This document shows positions 24,194 through 62,130 of a DNA stretch of 64,000 nt, in pieces. Under the pieces are notes generated by a model, which was given only the letters and a program-made list of their open reading frames with translations, did not search any database and was not told the origin of the DNA. The number at the start of each line of letters is the position of its first letter. The first letter of the stretch is position 1. The stretch spans positions 144,912,351 to 144,976,350 of the forward strand of contig CP136062.1 of assembly GCA_032622095.1 (NCBI GenBank), written 5' to 3'. Position numbers and translations under genes: made by a program. The DNA comes from Siphonodentalium dalli (Eukaryota > Mollusca > Scaphopoda > Gadilida > Siphonodentaliidae).

Positions 24194-24197
24194 TTAA

Positions 24198-24693: not shown

Positions 24694-24697
24694 TTAA

Positions 24698-26749
24698 ACG
24701 ACTGAGACGAATCTGATGATCTAGGTAATTATATAGATGAATTAAATGAGTCGTCGTTCCATGACAGTTATCTAAATAACACTATAACCGAAGAAGAAAT
24801 TAAATCTGTCATTTCCAATTTGAAAAACAGTAAAGCCGCTGGTCATGACGGGCCTTTAAATGAATATCTGAAGGCTTCTGTTGAGAAAATGATGCCCATT
24901 TATTCGTTACTTTTCAACTTAATCTTGGAATCTGGAAACTACCTCCGGGAATGGGCCGTTGGGATGATAAAACCTATATATAAAAAGTCTGGTGACCGAA
25001 CTATGCCGGACTCATATCTGGGAATTACACGTTTAAGCTGTCTTTCTAAAGTACTTATAGCCATTCTAAACAATAGAATGGTTTCATTTTCAGATGATCA
25101 TGAAATAATTTTAAAAAATCAGACGGGATTTAGAAAATCCCACTCAACCGCAGATAACATATTTGTTTTACACAGTGTAATAAACCTATACCTAAAAAGT
25201 GGTAAAAAATTATATTGCACATTTATTGATTTTAGAAAAGCTTTCGATACTATATGGAGGGATGCAATATGGCTGAAATTAGCCCAATGCAATATCAACG
25301 GAAAAATACTTAATGTCATTAGAAATATGTACGGTAAGATAAAAACATGTGTAAAAGACCGTCACAATATTTAAAACTTTTTTGTTAGTAATGTCGGACT
25401 TTTTCAAGGGGAAATAATGTCACCTTATTTATTTTCCTTGTACATTAACGACATCCAAGATTTTATGAATGATTGTGCAATAAAATATTTGAGTTATTTA
25501 GATGAACTATACATTGAAAATGTGGGATGTTACATAAAATTGTTTTGTATTCTTTATGCAGATGACACAGTATTAATGTCTGATACAGAAGAAAATATGC
25601 ACCTTTCTCTCCAAGCATTTGCAGATTATGCAGATGCTTGGAAGTTACGAGTAAATAAAAAAAAACTAAAGTCATACTATTTAGTAATAAACTACCCAAA
25701 CCAATTCCTACTTTCAGATATCGAGGTCAAGAACTCGAGACAGTCAAAGAATTTGTATATTTGGGAGTAACAATTTTTTTTACAATGGAAGATTTTGCCA
25801 AAATTTGAAAAAAATAGTTACTATTGGCACAAGAGCAATGTATGGATTACTAAACAAAGTGAGATATCGCAAGCTTCCAATCGATATTATGTTAAAACTA
25901 TTTGACTGTATGATAATACCCATCCTATTATATGGGAGTGAAATTTGGTGTCACGAAAGGACTCAAATTATTGAATCGCTTCATCTTAAATACTGCAAAA
26001 TTATAGGATATTTGAAAACAAGTACACCAAACTATATGGTTTACGGTGAATTTGTCCGACACCCTCTGTCCATTGAGATTAAGTGCAGAGCACTATCTAT
26101 CTGTTCCAAACTACTATCACATTAGGGCTCAGAACTTGCCAAACATATATATGTTCTTGTTAAAGAATTGGACCACAATTCTGATGGCTCATTTAATAGC
26201 CCATGGCTATTTTTTATTTCTAAAACCCTGAAAGAACTTAACATGGAAAGAGCATGGACAAATCAGTCAGGTTTAACACAAGCTGAAATTAGAACTATAA
26301 AATCAGAGCTTATTGAGCGACACAAGACAGAATAATTTACTGTAATGCAGAATGCAAACTCATCTAGAGCACGTTTTTATATAAGTATTAAAACGAGACC
26401 GGGCATGGGTCGCTATCTGAATTTCTTACCGGCTCACTTAGCAAACATTTTGCTAAAATTTAGAACCGCAAATCTAAAACTGCCTGTCGAATATACAAGA
26501 TGGAAATCTAAATCTGTGGATAATTGTGACAAAACCTGTGATATTTGCGGTGATGGCACGGGTGATGAATACCACTTTATTATTATTTGCAAAGAACTAC
26601 AGGCAATTCGATCATACTATATCCCGAAATATTACTGGGAGAATCCTACGAAAGAAAAATTCGAAAGACTGCTATCTTTGGAAAATCAACTATTACTGAA
26701 AAAAGTTAGTACTTTTTATCAAATTGGCATCAAGAAAATTAAAATATGA
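24698..26749 (+). pseudogene. Decayed LINE ORF2, RT and C-terminal part
   Basis: This continues the LINE from 24193. RT blocks are KAAGHDG (24830), TFIDFRKAFDTIW (motif A, about 25220), GEIMSPYLFSLYINDI (motif B, 25407-25455) and LYADDTVLM (motif C, about 25550). Then come the LLYGSEIWCH block (25925) and PNYMVYGEF. The tail (26345-26749) has LLKFRTANLKLPVEYTRW and CDICG---GDEYHFIIIC, a zinc motif, and ends at TGA. Several stops and frameshifts (for example near 25372, 25768 and 26123) make it non-functional. Its tail resembles that of the fragment at 9557-10720. Confidence 0.9.
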
Positions 26750-37656: not shown

Positions 37657-37882
37657 ATGAACCTATTTTTGTAAGGATATGTTGCTTATACAGATACATC
37701 AGTCTGTGTTTGTGAAAATAAGCAAACTACATGTACGGGCTTATTTTATAATTGTGCGAAATAAGCTCGTATTGGCATTATTTGAAAACTCAAATACACT
37801 TTATATGGGCCTATAACACTGGTTATTAAAACAGCCCTATGCAGGACTATTTCAATATGAAATAAGCACACATTGTATTCAT

Positions 37883-38098
37883 TTAGGTGGTTTCGCCGCG
37901 CCAAAACATGCGATAATATCGTTTTGGCACGCGCCGAAAGCGACACAAGCGCCAACATGTGCCCCATAATGTGGCACATTTTGGCGCTTCTTGTGCTTTC
38001 GGCGCGCAATTAATGGCGCATGTGTTGTCGCTTTCGGCGCGCGCCAGAACCGCCATTAGGAAGTGGCCATATACTAATAGTATTCCATATATTGGCAT
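37883..38098 (-). CDS. Small cysteine-containing ORF, unit 1 copy
   Basis: A 71-codon ORF begins with ATG and a hydrophobic stretch (PIYGILLVYGHFLMAVLARA) that looks like a signal peptide. About 50 mostly polar residues with five Cys (two NTC-INC, one PKC, two TCWRLC) and many Arg/Lys follow. The same ORF occurs in units 2-4. Part of it lies in a GC-rich palindrome that may explain its composition without selection. Differences between unit 1 and unit 3 here are four replacements and one silent change, which does not support purifying selection. No family recognised. Confidence 0.3.
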   Translation of the reverse strand: MPIYGILLVYGHFLMAVLARAESDNTCAINCAPKAQEAPKCATLWGTCWRLCRFRRVPKRYYRMFWRGETT

Positions 38099-38344
38099 GA
38101 TTTAACTTCAATATACACGTAAAACAGTCCAATATGTAACTACACAATGTATTTCCATACGAAATAAGCCCATATTGGCATTCATTAAACTACCTTTTTT
38201 CATCGACACGACAGGATTCACGCTATTTATAATTTATAACGCGCCATTTAACGGAAAAACCATATGCGAATATTTAGGTCCAATATGAACCTATTTCCAC
38301 GAGAATATGCTGAATGGATATATGCAATTCGCCAAATTATTTAC

Positions 38345-38417
38345 CTTAAATGCGAATACCGCTAGTTTGTCGGCCGTGTTCCCAATTACCGTATACGTTC
38401 TTCTCCGAAAGCGACAT
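38345..38417 (-). pseudogene. Exon-like segment, unit 1, broken by 17-bp deletion
   Basis: It is homologous to 41424-41513 but lacks 17 bp (the stretch around GGGGATGTGTGTACAGT), which shifts the frame. The acceptor- and donor-like motifs are still present. See the unit 2 entry for description. Confidence 0.5.
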
Positions 38418-39052
38418 GGTGAATACACTGCAGGTAAATTTGTGCCTTATTTATAACATGATATCTGCTTCTTAACAATTGTAACTTAATCAGCCGAATG
38501 ACAGACACACACGTACTGTGGAACACTTACGCATAACGTAGAGGTAATTAGTGGGGTGATATGGGTTATAATGTAGATCAACAGCATTTCTGCACAGGGA
38601 TGTGGCCAGAGGGTATTCGTTGTTGGAAGGGGTGGTACCTTGATATTTCCAACAAAAATCCCACCTCATTGAACCTGACTAAACTCACAAGTTCTCGAAA
38701 TTCCATTGGTTCCACCCCCTTTTAAGTTGGAGTTTTCCGTTTTCCAACTAGTACCCAAAGCTGTTTGAATTTCCAAAGTGACACCCGCCTAAATTTGGTA
38801 ATATAACCGCTGATTTCTATTTCAGTAATATTTTGATCTAAAGTAGGAAAATATGCGACTGTTGATCTAAAAAAAAAATTTCCACAATAAGTACTGGTTG
38901 TAAAATCAAACTATGAGAACAATTTTAACCTACGGGTGTATTTCTGGTGCGAAATTTCCAACTGATGTTGTGTCCGTAGTGAAATTTCCAACTTGAAAAG
39001 CTCGACCAAAGTTGGCCCCTGCCCCTGTTTCTGCATCACATTCATAGATATA

Positions 39053-39516
39053 TGTGACCCGCCATATCAAATCCAGTCGTAAGTCGGGATTGTTTTACCC
39101 TGTGCCAATGTATTCTCTTATATAAGCGAGTCGACAATAGGTCACCTCGCATATATAAGAGAATGCATTGGCCTAACAAAAATTTTATAATTTTTTTTTA
39201 AATAAATGTTTCTGACAATTTTTAGGACATAAAATAAAAAACATCCATTACCCTGCAGGGAGCCCCACACATATATAGAAGCATATAGAAGAGTGTCGTC
39301 CGCTCATGTTTTTCTGGCGCTCTGTATGGGTGAAATTATAAAATTGTTAAAGAATACAAGAAAACATTATTAAAATTGTAAAAAATTGTTAGGCCAATCA
39401 ATGCATTCTCTTATATATGCGAGGCGACCTATTGTCGACTCGCATATATAAGAGAATGCATTGGCACAGGGTAAAACAATCCCGACTTACGACTGGATTT
39501 GATATGGCGGGTCACA
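39053..39516. mobile_element. MITE with ~125-bp terminal inverted repeats, TA target
   Basis: The ends start TGTGACCCGCCATATCAAAT on both strands and stay near-identical for about 125 bp (39053-39177 and 39388-39516). Each arm can also fold on itself through CATTCTCTTATATA and its inverse. Units 2-4 of the array have the empty site, ACATATTAG. Comparison gives a TA target duplication (39051-39052 and 39517-39518), as in the Tc1/mariner group. The AT-rich middle has no coding sequence. It inserted after or during array formation, only in this unit. Confidence 0.9.
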
Positions 39517-40922
39517 TATTAGTCATCGCGGCATTCGAGAACACTGGCATCCACACGTGTTTCTCCGCCTTTTTAAGTTCGAAACAACATCTGAAAGCCA
39601 TTTATATAACTTTTTGCAATGTTTTTATTTTCTCCATATCAAAACCCAAGACACTGTTACCGCACATCATATAATGTACCTGTGCATGGTTCTCATAGGA
39701 AAGAGTGCACGAGCACGGAGCGTAAAATTCCGAAGCTTTCATATTCATGTAGATAGCGTACATTTGGTTTTTCTGTAATAAGTTTCTCTCACTTGAAAGG
39801 AAATTGCTCACATGACCACACAGGTTCACACGGTTCTGATAGCATTATCTCCAACCAGTATTTATTTTCAATTTAAATATTTTAGTCTGTACGTCGAACA
39901 CTGTCTTACTTTCGGTCATGTCTATACCCCACTCGAAGAACAGGGAGGAGTATACTATACTAATTACACGAGTCCGTCTGTCCGTCCATGTTTTTTTTAA
40001 TCATTTTTGTGAAATTTGATTTATGATTTTACCGAATTCACTAAAAGCTCTATCCATATTGAACTATTATATTTGAAGATAACTATAAAGTCAAACAAGG
40101 GATGTAACTCTGGTAAATTGAATTGATGCATCGTGTAGTAGGTCGGCATCATTTCCCCCGAGCTGTGGTATCAACATACATGTACCAATGCACAACTGAG
40201 TCAGAAGATTCATGCCCAAGTTTCAAGCTGAAATGTTCTATCGGACACAAAGTTCACAAAATCTCCCAATCTGTGGTATTACAATTCCAATGGACAACGA
40301 AATCCAAAAATAAAGACATTCACATCATAATGCATGTTTGTTATGGACGCGTTGGCGCGTTTTACATTAAGTACAGCAAAGGGTCTTAAAAAGTCTGGAC
40401 AAAACCTGCCTAATGTGGAGATCCTTTCCACAATTCTGGTCTACCGGCGTAGTAAATTATATCCAAATTTGAAATATCGATACTTGAGAATAGTGTTGTG
40501 AACTATTACGGACTCGATGGACGGACGGTACGACGCATGTAAACAGACAGAATGACGGCTTGATGGGAGGACGGACGGACGGACTGAGGTGTCCACTACA
40601 TGTACATACAACCGAACCCTCATTCGGAGGGTCGGTGGCATAATAACTTGCCGTGATCGCTATCATTTGTGTTATTACTTTCCGTCGGCGATTTTATATA
40701 GACGCTCTATATAGTTTTTGTTTTCTCTTAATGAACCTATTTGTGCGAGGATATGTTGCTTATACAGATATACACCAGTCTGTGTTTGTGAAAATAAGCA
40801 AACTACATGTACGGGCTTATTTTATAATTGCGCGAAATAAGCTCGTATTGGCATTATTTGAAAACTCAAATACACTTTATATGGGCCTATAACACTGGTT
40901 ATTAAAACAGCCCTATGCAGGA

Positions 40923-41165
40923 CTATTTCAATATGAAATAAGCACACATTGTATTCATTTTGGCGGTTTCGCCGCGCCAAAACATGCGATAATATCGTTT
41001 TGGCACGCGACACAAGCGCCAACATGTGCCCCATAATGTGGCACATTTTGGCGCTTCTGGTGCTTTCGGCGCGCAATTAATGGCGCATGTGTTGTCGCTT
41101 TCGGCGCGCGCCAGAACCGCCATTAGGAAGTGGCCATATACTAATAGTATCCCATATATTGGCAT
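40923..41165 (-). CDS. Small cysteine-containing ORF, unit 2 copy
   Basis: This copy of the ORF described at 37883-38098 lacks three residues (FRR) after CWRLCR and has a different, longer C-terminus (80 codons in all) because of nearby indels. The signal-peptide-like start and the five central Cys are kept. Confidence 0.3.
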   Translation of the reverse strand: MPIYGILLVYGHFLMAVLARAESDNTCAINCAPKAPEAPKCATLWGTCWRLCRVPKRYYRMFWRGETAKMNTMCAYFILK

Positions 41166-41423
41166 GATTTAACTTCAATATACACGTAAAACAGTCCAAT
41201 ATGTAACTACACAATGTATTTCCATACGAAATAAGCCCATATTGGCATTAATTAATCTACCTTTTTTTCATCGACACGACAAGATTCACGCTATTTATAA
41301 TGTGTTTTAACTGTATCCCGCGCCATTTAACGGGATAACCATATGTGAATATTTAGGTTCAATATGAACCTATTTCCACGAGAATATGCTGAATGGATAT
41401 ATCCAATTCGCCAAATTATTTAC

Positions 41424-41513
41424 CTTAAATGCGAATACCGCTAGTTTGTCGCACGTGTTCCCAATTACCGTATGGGGATGTGTGTACAGTACGTTCTTCT
41501 CCGAAAGCGACAT
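41424..41513 (-). CDS. Exon-like coding segment, unit 2 (30 codons)
   Basis: On the minus strand TTTACCTGCAG is followed by a short leader and then ATG (41513). The 30-codon frame starts MSLSEKNVLY, contains HTVIGNTCDK and ends VFAFK at a donor-like AAG|GTAAAT (just below 41424). Units 3 and 4 are the same, and a diverged inverted copy at 51594-51683 keeps 90 nt with no indel. About 75 bp upstream another donor-like GTAAGT ends a further frame, but the phases do not fit in both families. It is a plausible first coding exon, not proven. No protein family is recognised. Confidence 0.35.
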
Positions 41514-43596
41514 GGTGAATACACTGCAGGTAAATTTGTGCCTTAATTTATAACATGATATCTGCTTCTTAACAATGGTAACATAATCAGCCGAATGACA
41601 CGTACTGTGAAACACTTACACATAACGTAGAGGTATAAATTAGTGGGGTGATACGGGTTATAATGTAGATCAACAGCATTTCTGCACAGGGATGTGGCCA
41701 GAGGATGTTCGTTGTTTGAAGGAGTGGCACCTTGATATTTCCAACAAAAATCCCACCTCATTGAACCTGACTAAACTCACAAGTTCTCGAAATTCCATTG
41801 GTACCCCCCCCCTTCTAAGTTGGAGTTTTCCGTTTTCCAACTAGTACCCAAAGCTGTTTGAATTTCCAAAGTGACACCCGCCTAAATTTGGTAATATAAC
41901 CGCTGATTTCTATTTCAGTAATATTTTGATCTAAAGTAGGAAAATATGCGACTGTTGATAAAAAAAAATAAAATTCAACACTAAGTACTGGTTGTAAAAT
42001 CAAACTATGAGAACAATTTTAACCTACGGGTGTATTTTTGGTGAGAAATTTCCAACTGATGTTGTGTCAGTAATGAAATTTCCAACTTGAAAAGCTCGAC
42101 CAAAGTTGGCCCCGCCCCTGTTTCTGCATCACATTCATAGACATATTAGTCATCGCGGTATTCGAGAAAACTGTCATCCGCACGTGTTTCTCCGTCTTTT
42201 TAAGTTCGAAACAACATCTGAAAGCCATTTATATAACTTTTTGCAAATTTTTTATTTTCTCCATATCAAAACCCAAGGCACTGTGACCGCACATCATATA
42301 ATGCACCTGTGCATGGTTCTCATAGGAAAGAGTGCACGAGCACGGAGCGTCAAATTCCGAAGCTTTCATATTCATGTAGATAGCGTACATTTGGTTTTTC
42401 TGTAATAAAACGTTTCTCTCCCTTGAAAGGAAATTGCTCACATGACCACACAGGTTTACACAGTTATGATAGCATTATGCTCCAACCAGTATTTATTTTC
42501 AAATTAAATGTTTTTAGTCTGAAAGTCAAACACTGTCTTACTTTCGGTCATGTCTATACCCCACTCGAAGAACAGAGAGGAGTATACTATACTAATTACA
42601 CGAGTCCGTCTGTCCGTCCATGTTTTTTTTAATCATTTTTGTGAAATATGATTTATGATTTTACCGAATTCACTAAAAGCTCTATCCATATTGAACTATT
42701 ATATTTGAAGATAACTATAAAGTCAAACAAGGGATGTAACTCTGGTAAATTGAATTGATGCATCGTGTAGTAGGTCGGCATCATTTCCCCCGAGCTGTGC
42801 TATCAACATACATGTACCAATGCACAACTGAGTCAGAAGATTCATGCCCAAGTTTCAAGCTGAAATGTTCTATCGGACACAAAGTTCACAAAATCTCCCA
42901 ATCTGTGGTATTACAATTTCAATGGACAACGAAATCCAAAAATAAAGACATTCACATCATAATGCATGTTTGTTATGGACGCGTTGGCGCGTTTTACATT
43001 AAGTACAGCAACGGGTCTTAAAAAGTCTGGACAAAACCTGCCTAATGTGGAGATCCTTTCCACAATGCTGGTCTACCGGCATAGTAAATTATATCCAAAT
43101 TTGAAATATCGATACTTGAGAATAGTGTTGTGAACTATTACGGACTCGATGGACGGACGGTACGACGCATGTAAACAGACAGAATGACGGCTTGATGGAA
43201 GGACGGACGGACGGACGAACGGACTGAGGTGTCCACTACATGTACATACGACCGAACCCTCATTCGGAGGGTCGGTGGCATAATAACTTGCCGTGATCGC
43301 TATCATTTGTGTTATTACTTTCCGTCGGCGATTTTATATAGACGCTCTATATAGTTTTTGTTTTCTCTTAATGAACCTATCTGTGCGAGGATATGTTGCT
43401 TATACAGATACACCAGTCTGTGTTTGTGAAAATAAGCAAACTACATGTACGGGCTTATTGTATAATTGCGCGAAATAAGCTCGTATTGCCATTATTTGAA
43501 AACTCAAATACACTTTATATGGGCCTATAACACTGGTTATTAAAACAGCCCTATAAAGGACTATTTCAATATGAAATAATCACACATTGCATTCAT

Positions 43597-43812
43597 TTAG
43601 GTGGTTTCGCCGCGCCAAAACATGCGATAATATCGTTTTGGCGCGCGCCGAAAGCGACACAAGCGCCAACATGTGCGCCATAATGTAGCACATCTTGGCG
43701 CTTCTGGTGCTTTCGGCGCGCAATTAATGGCGCATGTGTTGTCGCTTTCGGCGCGCGCCAGAACCGCCATTAGGAAGTGGCCATATACTAATAGTATCCC
43801 ATATATTGGCAT
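43597..43812 (-). CDS. Small cysteine-containing ORF, unit 3 copy
   Basis: 71 codons, the same as in unit 4. It differs from unit 1 by Q/P, K/R, G/R and V/A replacements. See 37883-38098. Confidence 0.3.
   Translation of the reverse strand: MPIYGILLVYGHFLMAVLARAESDNTCAINCAPKAPEAPRCATLWRTCWRLCRFRRAPKRYYRMFWRGETT
43640..43759. repeat. GC-rich palindrome inside macrosatellite unit
   Basis: GGCGCGCGCCGAAAGCGACA (43640-43659) is a perfect inverse of 43740-43759. Between them AAGCGCCAACATGTGC and GCACATCTTGGCGCTT form a second inner pair. The equivalent lies at 46297-46416 in unit 4. It is GC- and CpG-rich in an AT-rich setting. Confidence 0.85.
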
Positions 43813-44079
43813 GATTTAACTTCAATATACACGTAAAACAGTCCAATATGTAACTACACAATGTATTTCCATACGAAATAAGCCCATATATGCCATATTG
43901 GCATTAATTAATCTACCTTTTTTTCATCGACACGACAATATTCACGCTATTTATAATGTGTTTTAACTGTATCCCGCGCCATTTAACGGAATAACCAAAT
44001 GTGAATATTTAGGTCCAATATGAACCTATTTCCACGAGAATATGCTGAATGGATATATCCAATTCGCCAAATTATTTAC

Positions 44080-44169
44080 CTTAAATGCGAATACCGCTAG
44101 TTTGTCGCACGTGTTCCCAATTACCGTATGGGGATGTGTGTACAGTACGTTCTTCTCCGAAAGCGACAT
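44080..44169 (-). CDS. Exon-like coding segment, unit 3
   Basis: Same as 41424-41513, with acceptor-like CTGCAG just above 44179 and donor-like GTAAAT just below 44080. Confidence 0.35.
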
Positions 44170-46253
44170 GGTGAATACACTGCAGGTAAATTTGTGGCTT
44201 AATTTATAACATGATATCTGCTTCTTAACAATGGTAACATAATCAGCCGAATGACACGTACTGTGAAACACTTACACATAACGTAGAGGTATAAATTAGT
44301 GGGGTGATACGGGTTATAATGTAGATCAACAGCATTTCTGCACAGGGATGTGGCCAGAGGATGTTCGTTGTTTGAAGGAGTGGCACCTTGATATTTCCAA
44401 CAAAAATCCCACCTCATTGAACCTGACTAAACTCACAAGTTCTCGAAATTCCATTGGTACCCCCCCCCCTTCTAAGTTGGAGTTTTCCGTTTTCCAACTA
44501 GTACCCAAAGCTGTTTGAATTTCCAAAGTGACACCCGCCTAAATTTGGTAATATAACCGCTGATTTCTATTTCAGTAATATTTTGATCTAAAGTAGGAAA
44601 ATATGCGACTGTTGATCAAAAAAAATAAAATTCAACACTAAGTACTGGTTGTAAAATCAAACTATGAGAACAATTTTAACCTACGGGTGTATTTTTGGTG
44701 AGAAATTTCCAACTGATGTTGTGTCAGTAATGAAATTTCCAACTTGAAAAGCTCGACCAAAGTTGGCCCCGCCCCTGTTTCTGCATCACATTCATAGACA
44801 TATTAGTCATCGCGGTATTCGAGAAAACTGTCATCCGCACGTGTTTCTCCGTCTTTTTAAGTTCGAAACAACATCTGAAAGCCATTTATATAACTTTTTG
44901 CAATTTTTTTATTTTCTCCATATCAAAACCCAAGGCACTGTGACCGCACATCATATAATGTACCTGTGCATGGTTCTCATAGGAAAGAGTGCACGAGCAC
45001 GGAGCGTCAAATTCCGAAGCTTTCATATTCATGTAGATAGCGTACATTTGGTTTTTCTGTAATAAAACGTTTCCCTCGCTTGAAAGGAAATTGCTCACAT
45101 GACCACACAGGTTTACACAGTTATGATAGCATTATGCTCCAACCAGTATTTATTTTCAAATTAAATGTTTTTAGTCTGAAAGTCAAACACTGTCTTACTT
45201 TCGGTCATGTCTATACCCCACTCGAAGAACAGAGAGGAGTATACTATACTAATTACACGAGTCCGTCTGTCCGTCCATGTTTTTTTTAATCATTTTTGTG
45301 AAATATGATTTATGATTTTACCGAATTCACTAAAAGCTCTATCCATATTGAACTATTATATTTGAAGATAACTATAAAGTCAAACAAGGGATGTAACTCT
45401 GGTAAATTGAATTGATGCATCGTGTAGTAGGTCGGCATCATTTCCCCCGAGCTGTGCTATCAACATACATGTACCAATGCACAACTGAGTCAGAAGATTC
45501 ATGCCCAAGTTTCAAGCTGAAATGTTCTATCGGACACAAAGTTCACAAAATCTCCCAATCTGTGGTATTACAATTTCAATGGACAACGAAATCCAAAAAT
45601 AAAGACATTCACATCATAATGCATGTTTGTTATGGACGCGTTGGCGCGTTTTACATTAAGTACAGCAACGGGTCTTAAAAAGTCTGGACAAAACCTGCCT
45701 AATGTGGAGATCCTTTCCACAATGCTGGTCTACCGGCATAGTAAATTATATCCAAATTTGAAATATCGATACTTGAGAATAGTGTTGTGAACTATTACGG
45801 ACTCGATGGACGGACGGTACGACGCATGTAAACAGACAGAATGACGGCTTGATGGAAGGACGGACGGACGGACGAACGGACTGAGGTGTCCACTACATGT
45901 ACATACGACCGAACCCTCATTCGGAGGGTCGGTGGCATAATAACTTGCCGTGATCGCTATCATTTGTGTTATTACTTTCCGTCGGCGATTTTATATAGAC
46001 GCTCTATATAGTTTTTGTTTTCTCTTAATGAACCTATCTGTGCGAGGATATGTTGCTTATACAGATACACCAGTCTGTGTTTGTGAAAATAAGCAAACTA
46101 CATGTACGGGCTTATTGTATAATTGCGCGAAATAAGCTCGTATTGCCATTATTTGAAAACTCAAATACACTTTATATGGGCCTATAACACTGGTTATTAA
46201 AACAGCCCTATAAAGGACTATTTCAATATGAAATAATCACACATTGCATTCAT

Positions 46254-46469
46254 TTAGGTGGTTTCGCCGCGCCAAAACATGCGATAATATCGTTTTGGCG
46301 CGCGCCGAAAGCGACACAAGCGCCAACATGTGCGCCATAATGTAGCACATCTTGGCGCTTCTGGTGCTTTCGGCGCGCAATTAATGGCGCATGTGTTGTC
46401 GCTTTCGGCGCGCGCCAGAACCGCCATTAGGAAGTGGCCATATACTAATAGTATCCCATATATTGGCAT
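46254..46469 (-). CDS. Small cysteine-containing ORF, unit 4 copy
   Basis: Identical at protein level to the unit 3 copy. See 37883-38098 for description and doubts. Confidence 0.3.
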   Translation of the reverse strand: MPIYGILLVYGHFLMAVLARAESDNTCAINCAPKAPEAPRCATLWRTCWRLCRFRRAPKRYYRMFWRGETT

Positions 46470-46727
46470 GATTTAACTTCAATATACACGTAAAACAGTC
46501 CAATATGTAACTACACAATGTATTTCCATACGAAATAAGCCCATATTGGCATTAATTAATCTACCTTTTTTTCATCGACACGACAATATTCACGCTATTT
46601 ATAATGTGTTTTAACTGTATCCCGCGCCATTTAACGGAATAACCAAATGTGAATATTTAGGTCCAATATGAACCTATTTCCACGAGAATATGCTGAATGG
46701 ATATATCCAATTCGCCAAATTATTTAC

Positions 46728-46817
46728 CTTAAATGCGAATACCGCTAGTTTGTCGCACGTGTTCCCAATTACCGTATGGGGATGTGTGTACAGTACGTTC
46801 TTCTCCGAAAGCGACAT
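46728..46817 (-). CDS. Exon-like coding segment, unit 4
   Basis: Same as the unit 3 segment, with the same flanking splice-like motifs. Confidence 0.35.
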
Positions 46818-48182
46818 GGTGAATACACTGCAGGTAAATTTGTGGCTTAATTTATAACATGATATCTGCTTCTTAACAATGGTAACATAATCAGCCGAAT
46901 GACACGTACTGTGAAACACTTTACGCATAACGTAGAGGTATAAATTAGCGGGGTGATATGGGTTATAATGTAGATCAACAGCATTTCTGCACAGGGATGT
47001 GGCCAGAGGATGTTCGTTGTTGGAAGGGGTGGCACCTTGATATTTCCAACAAAAATCCCACCTCATTGAACCTGACTAAACTCCCAAGTTCTCGAAATTC
47101 CATTGGTAAGTTGGAGTTTTCCGTTTTCCAACTAGTACCCAAAGCTGTTGGAATTTCCAAATTGACAACCGCCTAAATTTGGTAATTTGCTTGCTGATTT
47201 CTATTTCAGTAATATTTTGATCTAAAGTAGGAAATTATGCGACTGTTGATCTAAAAAAAATATTCCACACTAAGTACTGGTTGTAATATCAAACTATGAC
47301 AACTTTAGCCTACGGGTGTATTTTTGGTGTGAAATTTCCAACTGATGTTGTGTCAGTAATGAAATTTCCAACTTGAAAAGCTCGACCAAAGTTGGCCCCT
47401 GCCCCGGCCCCTGTTTCTGCATCACATTCATAGACATATTAGTCATCGCGGCATTCGAGAACACTCGCATCCGCACGTGTTTCTCCGTCTTTTTTAAGTT
47501 CGAAACAACATCTGAAGGCAATTTATATAACTTTTTGCAAAATATTTATTTTCTCCATATCAAAACCCAAGGCACTGTTACCGCACATCATATAATGCAC
47601 TTGTACATGGTTCTCCTAGGAAAGAGTGCACGATCACGGAGCGTCAAATTCCGAAGCTTTCATATTCATGTAGATAGCGTACATTTGGTTTTTCTGTAAT
47701 AAAACGTTTCTCTCACTTGAAAGGAAATTGCTCACATGACCACACAGGTTTACACAGTTCTGATAGCATTATGCTGCAACCAGTATTTATTTTCAAATTA
47801 AAGGTTTTTAGTCTGAAAGTCGAACACTGTACCCCACTGGAAGAACATGGAGGAGTATACTATACTAATTACACGAGTCCGTCTGTCCGTCCATGTGTGT
47901 GCCAGTTTACCGTTATCGAGTTATCCTTTGTTTATCTTAACTAATTATTGTTTACCTTAAACTGATATCTCAGCCATATACATAGTTAACAGATCTCAAT
48001 GAAATTTGGTATATATATATTCGCCATCATGATGACGGACCGATGCTTGTTAAATCATGGTACTGATTCACGTGCGGAAATGTTTTTTTTTTATAATTTT
48101 TGTGAAATATGATTTATGATTTTACCGAATTCACTAAAAGCTCTATCCATATTGAACTATTATATTTGAAGATAACTATAAA

Positions 48183-48769
48183 GAGTTGAAATCAGGACGT
48201 GCCAGACCCGCGGCCACCGATATGTGGCATCTACTGTAGATGCATTGCAGCCAGCTTACGATCATATACCAAGACCATGCAGTGACTACTTGTTGAAACT
48301 TGCTAAATTAACTGACCACGGTTGGGGGAATGTGTAAGTGGGGACGCATAACCCCGCCGCATATCTCTGTTGCAGAATATTCGACCATATACGTCGCACA
48401 TTTGGAAGACAATATGTATGATGAAATATGGCTCTCGTTGGCATGGACGTGTTGTATGATTACGTTCACGTAGTAGTGGTGAGCGCTTGCGATAAGTTAG
48501 CAGTATTAGCACTCTAGGTGAATTAGAAAAATAAATGTATCGGTAACTCCAAGTTTCTCAGCATCTATGCTATTCCGATTCAAATTCCAGTTTAGAGAGT
48601 GTGCAATGGGTGTATTTTTTAAATTATTTTCGAAATCCAAGACATTGGTATCATTTCCCCTTCAACTGGGCTGTCAATACACCAAAGCACAACAAAATCC
48701 GATGATCCATGCCCAAGGTACAAGCGGAAATGTTTATACAGAGACAAAATTCAGAAATTCCCAAATAAA
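48183..48769. repeat. Extra block in unit 4, partly a local duplication
   Basis: It is absent from units 1-3. Its right part (about 48620-48769) aligns with the following 48810-48960: ATCATTTCCCC, CTGTCAATAC/CTATCAACATAC, CATGCCCAAG and AAATGTT-TA occur in the same order. So a diverged duplicate of the downstream segment lies next to unrelated sequence of unknown origin. Confidence 0.6.
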
Positions 48770-49500
48770 ACAAGGGATGTAACTCTGATAAAATGAATTG
48801 ATGCATCGTGTAGTAGGTCGGCATCATTTCACCCGAGCTGTGCTATCAACATACATGTACCAACGCACAACTGAGTCAGAAGATTCATGCCCAAGTTTCA
48901 AGCTGAAATGTTCTATCGGACACAAAGTTCACAAAATCTCCCAAAATGTGCTATCACAATTCCATTGGACAACGAAATCCAAAAATAAAGACATTCACAT
49001 CATAATGTTTGTTATGGACGCGTTGGCGCGTTTTACACTAAGTACAGCAAAGGGCCTTAAAAAGTGTGGACAAAACCTGCCCTACGTGGAGATCCTTTCC
49101 ACAATGCTGGTCTACCGGCATATTAAATTATATCCAAATTTGGACTATCGATACTTGAGCTGTGTTGTGAACTATTACGGACTCGATGGACGGACGGTAC
49201 GACGCATGTATAGACGGACAGAATGACGGCTTGATGGAAGGACGGAAGGACGGACTGAGGTGTCCACTACATGTACATACCACAGAACCCTCATTCGGAG
49301 GGTCGGTGGCATAATAACTTGCCGTGATCGCTATCATTTGTGTTATTACTTTCCGTCGGCGATTTTATATTGACGCTCTATATAGTTTTGGTTTTCTCTT
49401 AATGAGCTTAGAGGTCCATCAGTCATCCGCTTTTGTATCCTGATCTGTTTAGTATTGGTTTGTGTTGAGCAATATGGGAAAGCTTCAATAAAATACCGGG

Positions 49501-50957: not shown

Positions 50958-51120
50958 GGGAAATATTACCCCCAAAATTGCACTATTGGCTGAAAAGTCC
51001 CTATCTAGACCCCTTGTAATTGAAAAAAAATAATATATATATATAGAGAGAGATGGGAAATAATACCCCAAAAATTGCACTATTGGCTGAAAAGTCCCTA
51101 TCTACACCCTGTAATTGAAA
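50815..51120. repeat. Minisatellite with TA and GA microsatellites, 3 copies
   Basis: The block AAAATTGCACTATTGGCTGA occurs at about 50848, 50974 and 51071, each followed by AGTCCC-ATCTA-ACCC and TGTAA-TGAAAA. Between copies lie (TA)n and (GA)n runs of different length. Period is about 97-126 bp. Confidence 0.85.
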
Positions 51121-51278
51121 ATCTATCACACAAGTTATAAAAGATACCTAACACATCGGTACTATAAATATATAATTATATGTATTTCACTTTATTATGT
51201 TTTCTCAAATATTGTATTTGTGTATGGTTTAATGAGAATAAACTGCAATCTCACACATCCCCGTCGAGTAACTTTTTT

Positions 51279-51340
51279 GGATTGGGCTTGAGTTGTGCAG
51301 ATTTGTTTTGGATTGGGCTTGAGTTGTGCAGATTTGTTTT
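51279..51340. repeat. 31-bp tandem duplication
   Basis: GGATTGGGCTTGAGTTGTGC starts at 51279 and again at 51310, each followed by AGATTTGTTTT. The two copies match perfectly. Confidence 0.9.
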
Positions 51341-51593
51341 GTTGATTTGTTTATTGACCGCATGTAAAGTGGACCTTAGATTACGAAAGCGTAGTGTCTT
51401 AACCATTCGGATATATAGAACAAAAGAACGTAGGGTCTGTATCGTATACATCGTCAGTAAGTCGGCCGAGGCTTATCTGCACGGTATGCGTAAGTGAATG
51501 TTACACATTGCATGTGCGTCTGCCATTCGGATGATTATGCCAGAAGAAGCAGACGTTTTTTAAGGCAGACATTTACCTGCAGTGTGTTTCACC

Positions 51594-51683
51594 ATGTCGC
51601 TTTTTGGGAAGAACGTATTGTACACGAGTTGTCATACGGTAATTGGGAACTCTTGTGACAAAATATCGGTATTCACATATAAG
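51594..51683 (+). CDS. Diverged inverted copy of the macrosatellite exon-like segment
   Basis: TTTACCTGCAG precedes a leader and ATG at 51594. The 30-codon frame MSLFGKNVLY...HTVIGNSCDK...VFTYK ends AAG|GTAAAT, as in the array copies but on the plus strand. Against unit 2 there are several replacements and three silent changes with no indel in 90 nt, while the leader differs by one base in length. This supports ATG as the start, if it is coding at all. An acceptor-like TTATTTGTAG lies about 95 bp downstream and would lead quickly to a stop. Confidence 0.35.
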
Positions 51684-51830
51684 GTAAATACTTTAGGATA
51701 TATCCATTATAACCCCTGATTTAGTGTTCCTGCTAACATGCTATGATCCTGCTGATTTATATATGATGTTATTTGTAGGACAAAACTATGTTCTAAGTGC
51801 AAGAACAAAAATAAACTATTTACTATTTAC

Positions 51831-52554
51831 TGCCCGGGCAAGCCCATGGGCAGTATAATATGGTGTCTTATGGTAATAGGATATATACAAAGCATATATA
51901 GGTTGTGAAAATTGACTTGCTGTGTCATCCGCCGGCGGGTTTATTTATCCCTTAAATGCCGATGTTGACTAAAAGAACCCGAGAGATCCCGGGCAGACCC
52001 AGAGACCCGATCCCACTATATATCGATGACTAACTGTGTCCAGACACCTATTAAACGTAAACGTCGAAGATTGACTCGCCTTCTTGTTCACGGCCAGGTT
52101 AATTAACCCCTTAAATGACGATATGGACAAGAAGAGCACATGCGAGACAGTGTAAGCCCGGTGGCCCAATGGGCCCACGGACACTATAATATGATGGCTC
52201 GTGGTAGTACGATACATGCAAAGCATAGGTTGTAAACGATTACTTGCTGTGTCATCCACCGCCGGCTTTATTAACCATTTAAATGCCGATATTGGCTAAA
52301 AGAACCCGAGAGAGCCCGGGCAGACCCAGAAACTCGATCACACTATATATATATTGATGAATAATTGTAGCCATACACCTATTAAATGTAAACGGTGAAG
52401 ATTGACTCACCGTCTCGTTCAAGACCTGGTTCATTAACCCCTTAAATGACGATATGGGCCAGAAGAGAGTACCTGATAGCTCGGACAGCTCCATGGACCC
52501 ACAGACCGTATACTATGGTGCCTTATGGTAGTATAGGATACACACTAAGAATAT
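51831..52554. repeat. ~330-bp tandem repeat, left block
   Basis: It holds the end of one unit (51831-51898), one unit (51899-52224) and a second (52225-52554). Diagnostic words are GAAAATTGACTTGCTGTGTC, CATCC-CCG, TTAAATGCCGAT, AGCCCGGGCAGACCCAGA and CCTTAAATGACGATATG. Neighbouring units are clearly diverged from one another. Confidence 0.85.
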
Positions 52555-52559
52555 GACTA

Positions 52560-54633
52560 AGTGACGACAGTAGCAGAACCTCGGCCCCAGAGTGTGAACC
52601 CATTGTTATATCGGAAATTATTAACGCAATTGGTAGCTTGAAATGTAATAAAGCACCAGGGCATGATTCTATATCCAGTGAACATCTTCGAAGCTATTCC
52701 GATGGACTAATCCAGTGTCTTTGTATTCTTTTTAACTCTCTTCTCAAGTTTGACTGGATTCCCCCGGAGATGAAACTAGGCGTGATAATTCCTCTTTATA
52801 AAGGACACCCAAAGCCACCAATATTACCCGACAGTTACAGAGCGATAACGCTTCTACCTGTCATCTACAAGCTCTTTGAGACAATTCTTCTGAAACGCAT
52901 ACTTAGCAGTGATAAGGTCAAAGATTTCCCTCATAATCTTCAGTGTGGCTTCCAGAAAGGTTTAGGATGTAATATGACTTCATTTATTCTGCAAGAAGCC
53001 ATATCGTACGCAAAAGACCACGATTCTCGTATATTTGCTGCGTTCTTAGATTCCAACAAAGCCTTCGACCGCGTGTGGAATATTGGACTCCTTTATAAGT
53101 TCATACAACTAGGCTTCCCGCGGAAATTTGTTAGATTGCTATCAAACATTCACGAGGACATAGAAAGCGTTATTCTATATAATGGTAACGTCTCAGAGAA
53201 GTTCAGCATCGGACAAGGAACAAGGCCAGGAAGTGTGCTCTCACCTTTCTGTTATCTTACCTACATAAACGACCTTCTGATCGACCTGAACAAATCACAG
53301 TTCGGACTGAGTGTTAGTTCTATTCCATGTGCAACACCAACGACCGCCGACGATATAGCAATTCTCGCCCTTACCAAGCAAGGACTTGACTCTCTTGTAA
53401 ATATCTGCTTTGACTACAGCGTTCGTTGGAGATTTGGATTTTCCTGTGTGAAAAGCAAGGTAGTCGTATTCAACGAGCCCAGGTCATTATATGACCGTAA
53501 AAATCGTCGCTGGATACTCGGGCCTGATTCGCTGCAAGAAGACAAGGGGTGCGTTCACCTTGGCTTGTGTCAGGAAAAATTTGCAAGTAGCTCCTCATTT
53601 GCCTCAGACGTCGCCGCAAAACTTAGGAAAACCTTCTTCTCTATGATTGGCAATGACTCTCTTAAATACGCTACTCCTCTGACAATGAACCACATGTTAC
53701 GGACCGTTGTCCTACCCAAATCATTATACGGCACGGAAATCACATCACTTCAAACACAATCATCTGTTAACATAATAGAACGTTCTCTGCGCACGTGTGT
53801 AAAATACTCGCAGCAATTACCAAAACGCACAAGTACTGATATTGCGCTTGGATTAATTAGTAGGACAACTTCCTGTTCAACGAGAAATACATAACCGCAA
53901 ACTGTGCTTTCTGGGGCAGTTGATTCACCTTCCTCCTGGACATCAAACTCCGCTTAAACTATTTATTTTCAAAGCACACCTGTATCGTCTATTTCGTCGC
54001 CCAGCTTCCGGATTTGTTTCTGATGTTTTCCCTTTACTTGAACAGTATGGACTCATGGTGCACGTTGACAACTTTCTACTCCACGGGAACTTCCCTGATC
54101 ACAAGTCATGGAAGACAATCGTTAAAAGTGTTGTAAAGATAACGTACACGACACAGTGGAAAGCAAATATTTCCAACGAAAGAAGGTTTTCTATTGTCAA
54201 ACATGTTCTCCGTGACCCCCTATCCGGATGGAAAATATGGAGACTCTTTCAATGTCACCCAAACGCAGCTGATAAATTCTATAACTTGGCCAAACTTCTC
54301 AACAAAACAACCTACCCAAATAACTCGACCTGCCACCAGTGTTATAAAGCATACGACAACGAACTTGATCACTTAATGTTCTGCTGTACAGCCCACGCAA
54401 TTCTGATGTTAAGGAACCAGTTATGGGGGACAATACTAAATCATAACGGCGTTTCAGTGTTCCTCTACTTGGACGGCTTACCTAAAAATGAATTTCTAGC
54501 AATCCTGCTTGGGACCAAGGATCCGTACTTAACATATCCCATTCAGAAATGCCACAACCTGATTATCGAGGTGTCATCATCTTTTCTTCTGACAATGTCC
54601 AGACTGGTGTCAAATACATATCAACTGATATGA
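52560..54633 (+). pseudogene. LINE reverse transcriptase and C-terminus, one frameshift
   Basis: Frame 1 runs from the truncation point through CNKAPGHDSI, DSYRAITLLPVIYKLFE, FLDSNKAFDRVW (motif A, catalytic Asp kept), GTRPGSVLSPFCYLTYINDL (motif B), TADDIAIL (motif C, both Asp kept) and PKSLYGTEI. Near 53865 the frame shifts. The other frame gives GQLPVQREIHNRKLCFLGQL and continues to 54631 with a CHQC---------H---C zinc motif. Apart from this shift it is intact, so the insertion is young. The endonuclease and ORF1 are missing through 5' truncation. Confidence 0.88.
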
Positions 54634-54838
54634 CAATGTCAGGATACAAGCCAAACTTCTGAATTAACATTAGAACCTAATGCATGTAATATTTTCTGTA
54701 GTGTTGCTCCTCATTTGATCACACGGTTGTGATATACATATATATATATATATATATTGTGTGTGTGTGCAGGCTAACACATATATATATAATTTATTTT
54801 CTAAATAGTATATGGTGCCTAACTATTATCATAACAAC

Positions 54839-55136
54839 CTCACGCATGTGAGGTGTTCTTTAGTGACGCCCGTCACTCGACGGCTATATGGGTGATGGAT
54901 ACATATATCTGCTTTGTGCACCAAACATGTGTATCATCTGTTTTCTAAGCATACTATACATAACGAATAATGTCATGACCTCTCGCATGTGAGATATTCC
55001 TTGGTGATTCCCACCAGCGATCACACGGATGCGATATATGTAAATTTATTTTCTGCACCCAACATATATATGTGGTATTCTAATTAGTCTATGCATGCAT
55101 AACATTGGATCACCATAATAATCTCACGCATGTGAG
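54839..55136 (+). repeat. Hairpin-bearing tandem repeat in LINE 3' UTR
   Basis: CTCACGCATGTGAG (a palindrome apart from its centre) occurs at 54839 and 55123, with CTCTCGCATGTGAG at 54980, spaced 141 and 143 bp. Each is followed by a similar TTCCTTGGTGA/TTGCTTAGTGA-type block and a CACA-GG-TGTGATAT word. It may be a structural signal for the element's own RT. Confidence 0.75.
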
Positions 55137-55467
55137 ATATTGCTTAGTGACGATCATCGACCACATGGGTGTGATATATGTAACTTCGTTCTGCGTATCC
55201 ATTTTATGTATAATTTGTTTTATAAATAGTCTATATTTCGAGTTATACGTTCAGCACTCGAGAACACGAGTACTATGTTTACTTTGTATTTACAATTATA
55301 CACCATTCGCATGTGATCATTATAACGTCACATGTCTATATTTATACATTGAGTTCATGTGCTTGTGATTTGATCTCTTGATTTATGTACAACATATTTG
55401 TAAATGACCATGTACAAATTATATCTCTCCTCAAAAGGAGGCAATAAAGAATATATATATATATATA

Positions 55468-56155
55468 GGTTGTAAACGATTACTTGCTGTGTCATCCACC
55501 GCCGGCTTTATTAACCATTTAAATGCCGATATTGGCTAAAAGAACCCGAGAGAGCCCGGGCAGACCCAGAAACTCGATCACACTATATATATATTGATGA
55601 ATAATTGTAGCCATACACCTATTAAATGTAAACGGTGAAGATTGACTCACCGTCTCGTTCAAGACCTGGTTCATTAACCCCTTAAATGACGATATGGGCC
55701 AGAAGAGAGTACCTGATAGCTCGGACAGCTCCATGGACCCACAGACCGTATACTATGGTGCCTTATGGTAGTATAGGATACACACTAAGAATATATTGTG
55801 AAAATTGACTTACTGTGTTATCCACCAGCGGTTTTATTAGCCCTTTTAATGCCAAAATTGGCTAAAGGAATCAGGGAGAGCCCGTCCACAACAGAGACCG
55901 CACCAAACTATATATCGATGGCTAATGGTATAGCGAGACACTTACTAAACGTAAACTGTGAAGATTGATTCGTCATCTCGTCTACCACCGGGTTAATTTG
56001 CCCCTTAAATGACGACATGTGCCCGAAAAGAGAGCCTTGTTAACCCGGGCAGACCCATTCGGAAAGTATAATATATGAAGCCTTGTGGTAGTAAAATGCA
56101 TATGTTGTGAAACATTACTTGCTGTGTCATCCAACGCTGGTGTTATTGACCCAAC
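55468..56155. repeat. ~330-bp tandem repeat, right block
   Basis: The first unit (to 55794) is the same as 52225-52554. The next (about 55797-56104) is diverged (TTAGCCCTTTTAATGCC, CCCCTTAAATGACGACATG), and a third is cut off at about 56155. Confidence 0.85.
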
Positions 56156-56257
56156 TCTATTTATTATTTGATCTAGAGTTTCAAGTCCACGATCCCCGTG
56201 CTAAAATATGTTTCAGATTGTTGACCCATTTACGATATTGACCCATCGAGGGCTGCA

Positions 56258-56480
56258 TTAAACAGCAATGAGAGTAGTCCTATTTCCCCTCTGAATATAT
56301 ACATACATGTATACCGATTTTGGTATATAGTCAGATATCGCTAATATTACTCCCAGTGTCAGAAACAGCGTGTCGAACATGACAGCTATCATTGTGATAT
56401 AACCGACGATCCAACGTTTTTGTCTCTTTATTTGAATAGAATAGTCCTTTCTAGTTATTTCGATATAAACCTTAGGACCG
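56258..56480 (-). CDS. Weak exon candidate with one membrane segment
   Basis: On the minus strand CGTTTTCCATGCAG precedes an open segment of about 73 codons with QIKRQKRWIVGY, then a hydrophobic stretch (ITMIAVMFDTLFLTLGVILA) suited to a membrane helix, ending at TAA. It lies in unique sequence between 330-bp repeat blocks. No family or partner exon is seen, and a hydrophobic chance frame is possible in AT-rich DNA. Confidence 0.25.
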
Positions 56481-56959
56481 AGTGTTCTGCATGGAAAACG
56501 CAATTTACATCGGAGAATTTACTCCAACAACTTGCATTGTTCACATTACGAGAGGATGTCAACAAGCATATTAAACAGAGTCTAACTATGCTCATTAAAA
56601 TCAGCGTCATGTCTCGGAACTCGCTTCAACCTTTATGATTTGTGGCATTCAGGACTTTGATAATTCAGCGAATAGTCGCTTGCATGCAGTTGATGCAAGA
56701 GGTATTCCAAAGTACCCTCTGACGTGCTATCAAATTTGGCGAAAATTATTAGCTAGATTCATTAATCACATATATTGGATATATTTGTGTGTGCTCTACT
56801 ATAGTTATAACGCCCCATTACTATACTATTGGTATAACATCTTTCTGCTAGAGATCAAAAGACTTTCCACTATAGGTATACATGTATAAATTCCGACGCA
56901 TTTCCCAACGGAAAGTCATCTACCTACATTATAGTTTGGAATAATATGATACGAGAAAA

Positions 56960-57215
56960 TAAGTCCGTGCTCCCCTGACCCACGGCGTCATTTAGGGGGT
57001 TAATGAACCCGGTCGTGATCGAGATGGCGAGTCAGTATTCCCAGCTACGCTTCTTTTAGCCAATATCGGCATTAAAGGGGTTAATAAAACCGGTGATGGG
57101 TGGCATGGCAAGTAAATTTTCACAGCCTACATGTATGCATCCTACTAGCATAATGCATCATGGTATACTGTCCACGGGTCCATGGGACCGCACGCGCTTG
57201 GCTGAGATTTCTCGT
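56960..57215. repeat. ~330-bp repeat, inverted orientation
   Basis: Reverse complement of the 330-bp unit: GGGGGTTAATGAACCC, CTTTTAGCCAATATCGGCAT, AAAGGGGTTAATAAA, GTCCACGGGTCCATGGGACC. It is diverged from the forward units. Confidence 0.75.
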
Positions 57216-57217
57216 GA

Positions 57218-58877
57218 TTCACTAACTTATTGATATTAGATATGGAGCCACTCTGAAATTTCACTTTAATTTTTCGAATTTAAAGAGCGTTTAGTGATTA
57301 TATAATTTATTAAATGTCGCAATTAATCTTACCATGACATATGCGATATAAAATTAGACATATACAGTAAGTATGACTCTGCTAAATATAATGCCACATG
57401 TTTATAATAAAATTGGAACCCCCCGTCCACGATGACCGTCAAAATGGCAACTGAAAGAGGACAATTTGGCGGTTTTTCACCAATATCTTCTAGATCAGTT
57501 TCTATTTTGTATTTTTCATATTAACTGATCATGGAAGCAATGAAATATGCCATTCGATTTTCTAAAATAACTTGGTATGAAATTTCACCAAGAATTACCG
57601 TTAGGATTCTAGTCATGTTTTAAGAAGAAATGGACAGAACTGTGCACAGTAAGTGAGGTATGCCATTGATTATGAATATTTCAACTCAATGGAACAAAAT
57701 TGTCACATGTTATTGGGCCAGAGTAGGCATATAATTATGCCCCATCTCAGTTAATTTTCAGATTGCTGCTCATTTCCGTTCAAAACATGGCCAGAATCCG
57801 ATAAAAAGTTTTCGGCAAAATTGCATTTTGCATCATTTAAAATGGAATTGTCATGCCCCATAATGTACATCCAGAATAGAACATTAGTTGTCAGTTGATT
57901 AACTAGCATGTTTAATAACAAAGTGAATCACAACTTGCTACCTTTACAGAAGAGTAGAGCATAATGTTCGGGTTTTATGTGAAAATATCAACTTTTCTGT
58001 AAAATTTTGTGGACATTTTGGAAGCCATCTTGAGTATTTCTTTCTAAAAACACCTCAATGTGATGCATCTAAGACGGATCAAATCATAAAAAAAACCCAA
58101 ATATATTTCCAAATAGTCCAAGCCTGATAAGTTAGAATTTTGAGAGAAAATTTCAATATGTGGGTAATTTAATCGTAACAATTAACCAAGATGCATCATA
58201 AATGTAAGTATTCAATGTATTTACGACATAATATTCAATTTTAAACCACAACTTTTTTTACAAGCAATCGTATTATATTTTGGCCGCCATTTTGACAGCA
58301 ATTTTTAGCCAAAGTGACAATTTTAATTTCATTGGGTTAATATAGTCACACGTAATGGGATGCATTACTTACATTGTGCAGTTCTGCTCATTTCTTGTTG
58401 AAATTTGACTAGGATAAATTTATGATTTTTGGTGAAATTTTATATTGAATTCTGTAAAAATAGATTTTGTTAAGGATTAGAAGGAGATGGAACCCCATGC
58501 ACGACATATTTCACTGCTACAGTGATCCGTTAACATGAACATAACAAAATAAAGTAAAATTGTCAACCAGTTTCAAACAGCTGAAACTGATATAGAATAT
58601 ATTAGTGAAAAAAATGTCAATTTTTCCACTTACGGCTTCCATTTTGAGGGCCATCTTGGGCGGGGGGATTCCAATTTTGGTTTAAAATTTATCATTATAT
58701 CTCGCAGAGTCATACTTACTGTATATGCCTAATTGTTAATTGCATATCCCATGGTAAGAGTAATTACGACATTTAGTAAATTTAGTAAACGCTCTTTAAA
58801 TTCGGGAAATCCCTAAAATTTGGGGTTAAAGTGAAATTTCAGCGTGGTTCGATACCTAATATCAATTAGTATGTGAA
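57218..58877. mobile_element. 1.66-kb element with ~0.5-kb inverted arms
   Basis: The left arm (57218-57706) and right arm (58314-58877) align as inverted repeats along most of their length. Shared blocks: TTGATATTAG at the tips, CTGAAATTTCACTTTAA, TTTAAAGAGCGTTTA, CAGTAAGTATGACTCTGC, ATTGGAA-CCCCC, TCAAAATGG, ATCAGTTTC, AACTGATC/AACGGATC, GCAATGAAATATG/GCAGTGAAATATG, AGAACTG and AAAATTGTCAC. The middle (57707-58313) is not palindromic but has related CCATTTTG/CCATCTTG words. No coding frame of note. It lies within inverted 330-bp repeat sequence. Foldback-type or long-TIR non-autonomous DNA transposon is most likely. Confidence 0.82.
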
Positions 58878-60986: not shown

Positions 60987-62130
60987 GGGTGCATTTACAT
61001 TGCTATATAACTGCACACAGATCTACACGCAGACTAGTGTACACGGGTTGATATAGAAATGCACACAGAAAGAAAACGATATTAGTTCGTGTGAGCAAAA
61101 ATCGTGTCCGCTAAACGTCACGGTCAACGCCGAAGCATTGCGACAGGCAAATCTGTTTTGATTAATTGTTACTCGGGCTTGGCGAATGTGTTTTAGTTTT
61201 CGTTGTCATTTCAACCCGTGTATTTCGAATATTGAACACGGACAGGGACGTGGCAACTTTGGTCAAACTTTTCAACTGTTGGAAATATCATACCTGACAC
61301 ATTAGCTGTAATTTCCAAACCAACAATATGTTGAAAATGAACTTGTAGTTTGATTTTCAAACATTTTATTGGGGGGGGGGGGGGTTTATTGTTTTCGGAC
61401 CAATATTTGCATAATCTCCTACTTTTTATCAAAATTTTGGGCTGGAATGGCCATCAGCTGGAAATTTTCCAACCTTATCATGGGGGCGGGTGTCAGGTTG
61501 GAAATTTCAGACACTTGGAAAGATTGTGTTCTGATCCCTCCCCGTGGCCAGTCAAAAACTGCTAGTTAATTTAATAAAACAATATTGTCCTACATTTGGT
61601 CAACATTGTCATTGGAATTGTCATCAGTTGGAAATTTTACTACATTTGGTCAAATAAAGGGTGTTGTAGGGTGGATACCCATTCCACACAGTTCCAAAAC
61701 GGCCACCGCCCAGATGGTGTCAAACAGGAGACCTATATATATATATAGTTGATCACCTGAAATCCTAAATATTGGTGGAATGATTGGAATCTCCATCTAA
61801 AGCTATATGTGTGCTCGCAAGCCTCTATTTGTGTATACTGTTGTTTATTGTGTATTCCTATGCGATTTTCATACTTTCTTCGAACCATTATCAAGTGGTA
61901 TAAGGATACACTTTAAATACATGCGGCACATACCAAATCGCTGTTGTCTGCTGATGGTAGATCCATTTTTATGTCTGGCCTAAACTGAAACGACTCGTAG
62001 TGAATTGTCAATTACCAGAGTACTGATCAGCGCGCGTTCACTATTAGTAATCGTATTGTGATCACAGTAATGCGCGACACGTGACTTCATACAGATCTGT
62101 ATACAGTTCTATATCAGTGTAAATGCACCC
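60987..62130. mobile_element. Harbinger-like non-autonomous transposon (1144 bp), TTA target
   Basis: The ends are inverted repeats: GGGTGCATTTACATTGCTAT (left) against GGGTGCATTTACACTGATAT (right, reverse complement), and the pairing continues weakly through ACTG-A-ACAGATCT. A TTA lies directly outside on both sides (60984-60986 and 62131-62133), the target size of PIF/Harbinger. No transposase is found. The element contains a copy of the GGAAATTTCC-family repeat (61230-61560), which probably inserted into it. Confidence 0.7.
61230..61560 (-). repeat. Dispersed repeat, GGAAATTTCC family, minus copy
   Basis: It aligns with the reverse complement of about 46980-47410: CAACTTTGGTC-A-CTTTTCAA, GTTGGAAAT, CCTGACACA/ACTGACACA, TAGTTTGAT, GCATAAT-TCCTACTTT and ATCAAAAT in order. 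A G14 run (61371-61384) interrupts it. Confidence 0.7.

Follow-up and report, generated by a model that had tools for sequence, protein, structure and literature searches.

A truncated LINE between identical 330-bp dimers of a satellite-like array: probably an ordinary insertion with an 8-bp target-site duplication

LINEs with an apurinic-like endonuclease (APE) generally generate target-site duplications of 10–20 bp (PMC6895275), and those of the rotifer LINE Hebe are given as 7–12 bp (PMC2861651). Far longer duplications are also on record. R9 of bdelloid rotifers, an element specific for rDNA, is described with a target-site duplication of 126 bp (PMC6895275), and a duplication of 1228 bp is reported for 1 of 25 ZfL2-2 insertions in wild-type DT40 cells (PMC2666801). 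The cleavage consensus given for the LINE-1 endonuclease is TTTTT/AA (PMC8565326).

The locus analyzed here lies in a window of 64,000 nt (the whole stretch of DNA examined) and consists of a truncated LINE in a short satellite-like array, flanked on both sides by the same 330 bp (Table 1). Like R9, it combines a LINE in a tandem array with a long duplication (PMC6895275). The R9 duplication is described for the element, whereas a single copy is at hand here and an alternative short duplication exists; R9 is specific for rDNA, whereas Rfam matched no rRNA family in the window. ZfL2-2 offers the precedent that a very long duplication is possible at a single LINE insertion (PMC2666801), but that case comes from cell culture and no tandem array is mentioned in the passages that describe it. 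With ordinary APE-type insertions (LINE-1-like and ZfL2-2-like), the locus shares 5' truncation, a reverse transcriptase related to LINE-1 ORF2p, a proposed short duplication, and a pyrimidine-rich inferred nick. It differs from them in that this short duplication would lie within a duplication of one array dimer and that the endonuclease part is absent from the copy. The array itself can be likened to the central repeats of the oyster Helentron Cg_HINE, which also form a short array of monomers mostly 140–180 bp long (PMC7492417), by monomer length alone; the Helentron/HINE criterion consists of sub-terminal inverted repeats, with a microsatellite to the left of the array and a palindrome to its right.

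Table 1. Features of the LINE insertion and of the surrounding array (window coordinates)
Feature	Coordinates	Strand	Basis or remark
Partial B monomer at the left array end, with closing linker AAAGCATATATAGG	51842–51902	+	Similarity starts at 51842
Dimer U1 (A1 51903–52062, B1 52063–52229), with closing linker AAAGCATAGG	51903–52229	+	77% like the identical block
Left copy of the identical block, dimer U2	52225–52554	+	330/330 vs. 55465–55794
Proposed left copy of the 8-bp target-site duplication, AAGAATAT	52547–52554	+	Recurrence at 55447
5'-truncated LINE body	52555–55446	+	Own 3' end somewhere in 55446–55464
Reverse transcriptase frame, 445 aa	52557–53891	+	RVT_1 E 7.2e-20; human LINE-1 ORF2p E 3.9e-19
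C-terminal frame in another phase, 258 aa, with CCHC-like motif	53857–54630	+	zf-RVT E 0.056, below the Pfam cut-off; CCHC label is our own reading
Small predicted hairpin near the LINE 3' end	55426–55441	+	Fold of 55395–55464
Proposed right copy of the 8-bp target-site duplication, AAGAATAT	55447–55454	+	Recurrence of 52547–52554
AT run and AGG, read as array linker (rival reading: LINE tail up to 55464)	55455–55469	+	Layout
Right copy of the identical block, dimer U2	55465–55794	+	330/330 vs. 52225–52554
Dimer U3 (A3 55796–55957, B3 55958–56104) and partial A4 (56105–56151)	55796–56151	+	Monomer split

Splitting of the repeats at shared anchors gave complete monomers of 147–167 bp of two alternating types, A and B. 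Monomers of one type in adjacent dimers are 77–87% identical (138/158 positions for A1–A2, 124/156 for B1–B2, 126/158 for A2–A3, and 110/142 for B2–B3 in the monomer alignment), and A and B monomers are 70–77% identical to each other. An AT-rich linker directly precedes every A monomer, and TTGT follows it in each case; the linker sequences are AAAGCATATATAGG, AAAGCATAGG, AAGAATATA, and ATGCATATG. From this layout, the identical block is exactly one A–B dimer, that is, one array period, cut in the linker at each side. AT runs of the array do change length, since the AT tract inside monomer A of U2 exceeds those of A1 and A3 by 4 bp. Rfam returned no matches in the window at gathering scores and none in 51000–57500 up to an E value of 1, results that do not speak for a ribozyme-bearing satellite. 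Downstream of the array, at 56960–57200, lie fragments of monomers A and B in inverted orientation, 66–80% identical to array monomers. At the opposite border, a tail-like AAATAAACTATTTACTATTTACT at 51809–51831, ~10 bp before array similarity starts, is possibly the end of another retroelement.

BLAST comparison within the window matched all 330 positions of the two block copies, in agreement with the first-pass annotation, which had noted ~330 bp of the same sequence on either side of the LINE. That annotation had also described the nearby tandem units as clearly diverged, and the flanking units are indeed only 77.4% (51898–52227) and 74.2% (55808–56058) identical to the block in the BLAST alignments. 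Chance similarity of the copies was ruled out, because 330 consecutive matches would not be expected where neighboring units are so diverged; the same comparison indicates that the identity of the block is recent. Zero differences over 330 sites place the divergence of the copies at no more than ~0.9% (rule of three, our own arithmetic). Identity ends abruptly on both sides, with C/T at 52224/55464 and G/A at 52555/55795.

The sequence between the block copies would be classed as a LINE (non-LTR retrotransposon) by the reverse transcriptase predicted in it, whose best solved relatives include human LINE-1 ORF2p and R2 (E 9.1e-16). The polymerase domain of the element begins at residue 85 of the 445-aa frame, and the 5' truncation lies a short distance upstream of this domain. 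The RVT_1 match and the missing 5' part thus bear out an earlier description of the insert as a truncated LINE. That Pfam identified no C-terminal domain apart from the weak zf-RVT match is the only hint toward the APE type; the LINE was probably of this type and lost its N-terminal endonuclease by 5' truncation. At the 3' end, the predicted hairpin is followed by GGCAATAAAG and then by the AT run, with AATAAA at 55443–55448 as a plausible LINE polyadenylation signal. The hairpin is no more stable than shuffled sequence (z −0.68; 41 of 200 shuffles fold as well).

No second copy of the LINE was found in the window at the DNA level in a comparison extending to an E value of 1e-8. In searches for relatives of the reverse transcriptase frame, 2 stretches of viral_contigs and 18 of genome_contigs matched the pattern and none was confirmed; no stretch of viral_contigs matched the pattern for the C-terminal frame. 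A DNA pattern from the LINE 3' end led to 2 viral contigs and one from the array linker to none, while a second 3'-end pattern led to 13 genome contigs and no viral contigs. When these 15 contigs were compared with the LINE and the array, DNA matches among the 20 best rows were at most 25 bp long and one protein match had an E value of 0.70 (L003); all were taken as chance. The window's other LINE remnants are distantly related (27% over 432 columns at 21154–19940, E 8e-37; 25% over 322 at 24745–25707, E 4e-26; 38.6% over 70 residues at 33676–33467; 24% over 146 at 33354–32941). Inspection by eye of the surroundings of four such remnants gave no clue to the 3' end of the present family, and no clear tail was seen at the remnant at 33.7–32.9 kb.

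Several other retroelement-like features were seen in the window. On the minus strand, 19742–22609 encodes an unbroken LINE protein of 956 aa that has both an endonuclease and a reverse transcriptase domain; it lies in a stretch of raised GC (0.489 at 20001–22000) and strong strand skew and is possibly a young element. Another LINE, with broken frames, lies on the plus strand at 22829–26746; within it, 24210–24698 is 92% identical to 2070–2562 and looks like a separate repeat. A 292-aa plus-strand frame at 17563–18438 has a GDSL-like lipase/acylhydrolase domain (E 5.1e-06) and is perhaps part of a retroelement protein. An ACT-repeat tail at 8964–8987 follows a LINE-like C-terminal frame at 7774–8475 in which Pfam recognized no family, and contrasts with the AT run at 55464.

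The junctions of the LINE contain a second, much shorter repeat. The 8-bp sequence AAGAATAT directly precedes the LINE and recurs starting 18 bp before the right-hand block copy, where it is followed by the AT run, AGG, and the start of the right-hand U2. It is present at 4 places in the window on both strands together, 3 of them here, and no suffix of the left flank longer than these 8 bp reappears within the 35 bp preceding the right copy. As a control, 8-mers from the window were sought in the 35-bp tail at 55430–55464. With junction positions left out, the 8-mer taken lay in that tail at 152 of 63,917 positions, 44 of them not purely A/T; with those positions included, the count was 185 of 63,992. 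For 8-mers ending in ATAT or TATA, the corresponding figures were 131 of 1715, and 29 of 1613 without the pure AT ones (junction positions included). The AT-rich context makes the match less striking and its occurrence by chance unlikely, though not overwhelmingly so. The repeat was noticed after the junctions had been inspected rather than beforehand. A length of 8 bp is slightly below the 10–20 bp generally given for APE LINEs (PMC6895275). A target-site duplication is present under either reading of the junctions, and both 8 bp and 330 bp fit the letters.

The two readings give different empty sites. Removal of the LINE with one 330-bp copy leaves U1-U2-U3 with spacings of 327, 326, and 309 bp, and removal of the LINE with one 8-bp copy leaves U1-U2-U2-U3 with spacings of 327, 340, 326, and 309 bp; both are regular arrays. 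In the latter, the sequence before the right copy takes the form of a linker: the reconstructed U2/U2 linker, AAGAAT-(AT)n-AGG-TTGT, has the same layout as the first linker, AAAGCATATATAGG-TTGT. Its left half is identical to the closing part of U2 and its right half to the opening part, as expected where duplicated dimers meet. It is ~13 bp longer than its neighbors (spacing of 340 vs. 309–327), owing to the length of the AT run. The first nick would fall at CAACCTAT^GCTTTG in the 330-bp reading, unlike the LINE-1 consensus. In the 8-bp reading it would fall at ATATTCTT^AGTGTG, which resembles TTTTT/AA (PMC8565326). Counted on both strands, the strict motif TT(T/C)TT^A has one occurrence in 1075 bp of array and 155 among the 128,000 positions of the window; TAAGAA at 52546–52551 is such a site. 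A looser motif of five pyrimidines and two purines occurs at 18 sites in the array (5 plus, 13 minus). The argument from the nick motif is a weak one, since endonuclease preference varies among LINEs and the domain is absent from the present copy.

The locus is probably an ordinary LINE insertion, with an 8-bp duplication, in an AT-rich linker beside a recently duplicated dimer; this level of confidence reflects likelihoods weighed by judgment and is not a computed probability. Target-primed reverse transcription would have placed the LINE in an AT-rich linker separating two dimers, with AAGAATAT as the resulting target-site duplication. In a separate event, most likely before the insertion but possibly after it, one dimer would have been duplicated in register by unequal exchange or slippage, with the exchange in the AT-rich linker, so that the flanking dimers became identical. 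It is plausible both that the LINE entered an AT-rich linker and that the exchange fell in the same AT run, and the AT run would belong to the array rather than to the tail of the LINE. Simple unequal exchange by crossing over within the dimer was rejected, because the left copy, which is U2 to its last base, would then be a U2/U1 chimera. Since an ordinary 8-bp footprint can be read at the junctions, the long copy is more likely an array duplication than a record-length insertion scar, and a block of one period is what an array duplication predicts. Fresh tandem duplications are not rare in the window: 4 of 16 TRF rows (units of 14, 15, 25, and 31 bp, 2.0–2.5 copies) are 100% identical, and tandem units of ~2.65 kb at 37657–49405, with one segment in four copies, are ~91–97% identical over long stretches. 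Weak inverted similarity (66–76%) to parts of the ~2.65-kb units was also seen at 51473–51708 and 61235–61509.

The strongest competitor is a true target-site duplication of 330 bp, which we consider unlikely. Here, the bottom-strand nick would lie in the U1/U2 linker and the top-strand nick in the U2/U3 linker, one period further downstream, and the LINE tail would consist of AAAGA and the AT run. The identical block exactly flanks the LINE, the empty site U1-U2-U3 is also regular, and both inferred nicks follow TAT (bottom CCTAT^GC, top AATAT^AT). Since AATAAAGA occurs repeatedly in the window (11 times on the plus strand, once on the minus), AAAGA may well be the LINE's own. The precedents of 126 bp in R9 (PMC6895275) and 1228 bp in ZfL2-2 (PMC2666801) raise the prior of a 330-bp duplication and lower its novelty. 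However, it leaves two coincidences, the equality of its length with one array period and the 8-bp match at the ends of the LINE, both of which the 8-bp reading explains. One version of the 330-bp reading would place the two nicks at equivalent positions of neighboring dimers, with the array period setting the size of the duplication to one dimer, 330 bp; we regard it as unlikely. The 8-bp reading, for its part, must accept that a dimer had been duplicated and that, of all linkers, the LINE hit the one between the duplicated dimers, and requires a short overlap because AATAAA at 55443–55448 extends 2 bases into the proposed duplication. It would be contradicted if members of the LINE family ended in ...CAATAAAGA and an AT run at unrelated sites. 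Of the original proposal of a giant target-site duplication, the placement stands, but a length of one period and an 8-bp duplication readable at the same junctions weigh against the 330-bp stagger. The extra dimer might instead have been made during or because of the insertion, the LINE first entering the linker between U2 and U3 and producing an 8-bp duplication there; a second U2 would then have been added on its right by repair, or by a template switch to the linker between U1 and U2 in a sister copy. Such a course would give the same hybrid linker and full identity, and the joined flanks fit it as well as they fit the favored explanation, but it needs a second, coupled event at the 3' junction of the LINE and nothing in the sequence prefers it to a separate duplication; we rate it as improbable. 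The first-pass suggestion that a unit was copied within the array accordingly survives as an in-register dimer duplication, but nothing requires its tie to repair of the insertion. An assembly artefact, in which two haplotypes or array units were wrongly joined in an AT run, appears the least probable of these explanations: the AT-rich linker bordering the block is a possible place for a false join, but the window contains no N and both block copies run on into distinct, plausible neighbors.

If the ordinary reading is true, the locus calls for caution, as an insertion beside a fresh array duplication mimics a giant target-site duplication; a search for short duplications concealed in AT-rich linkers should come first. 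If the 330-bp reading is true, it would suggest that second-strand cleavage can be positioned by repeat register, which would bear on how LINEs choose the site of the second nick.
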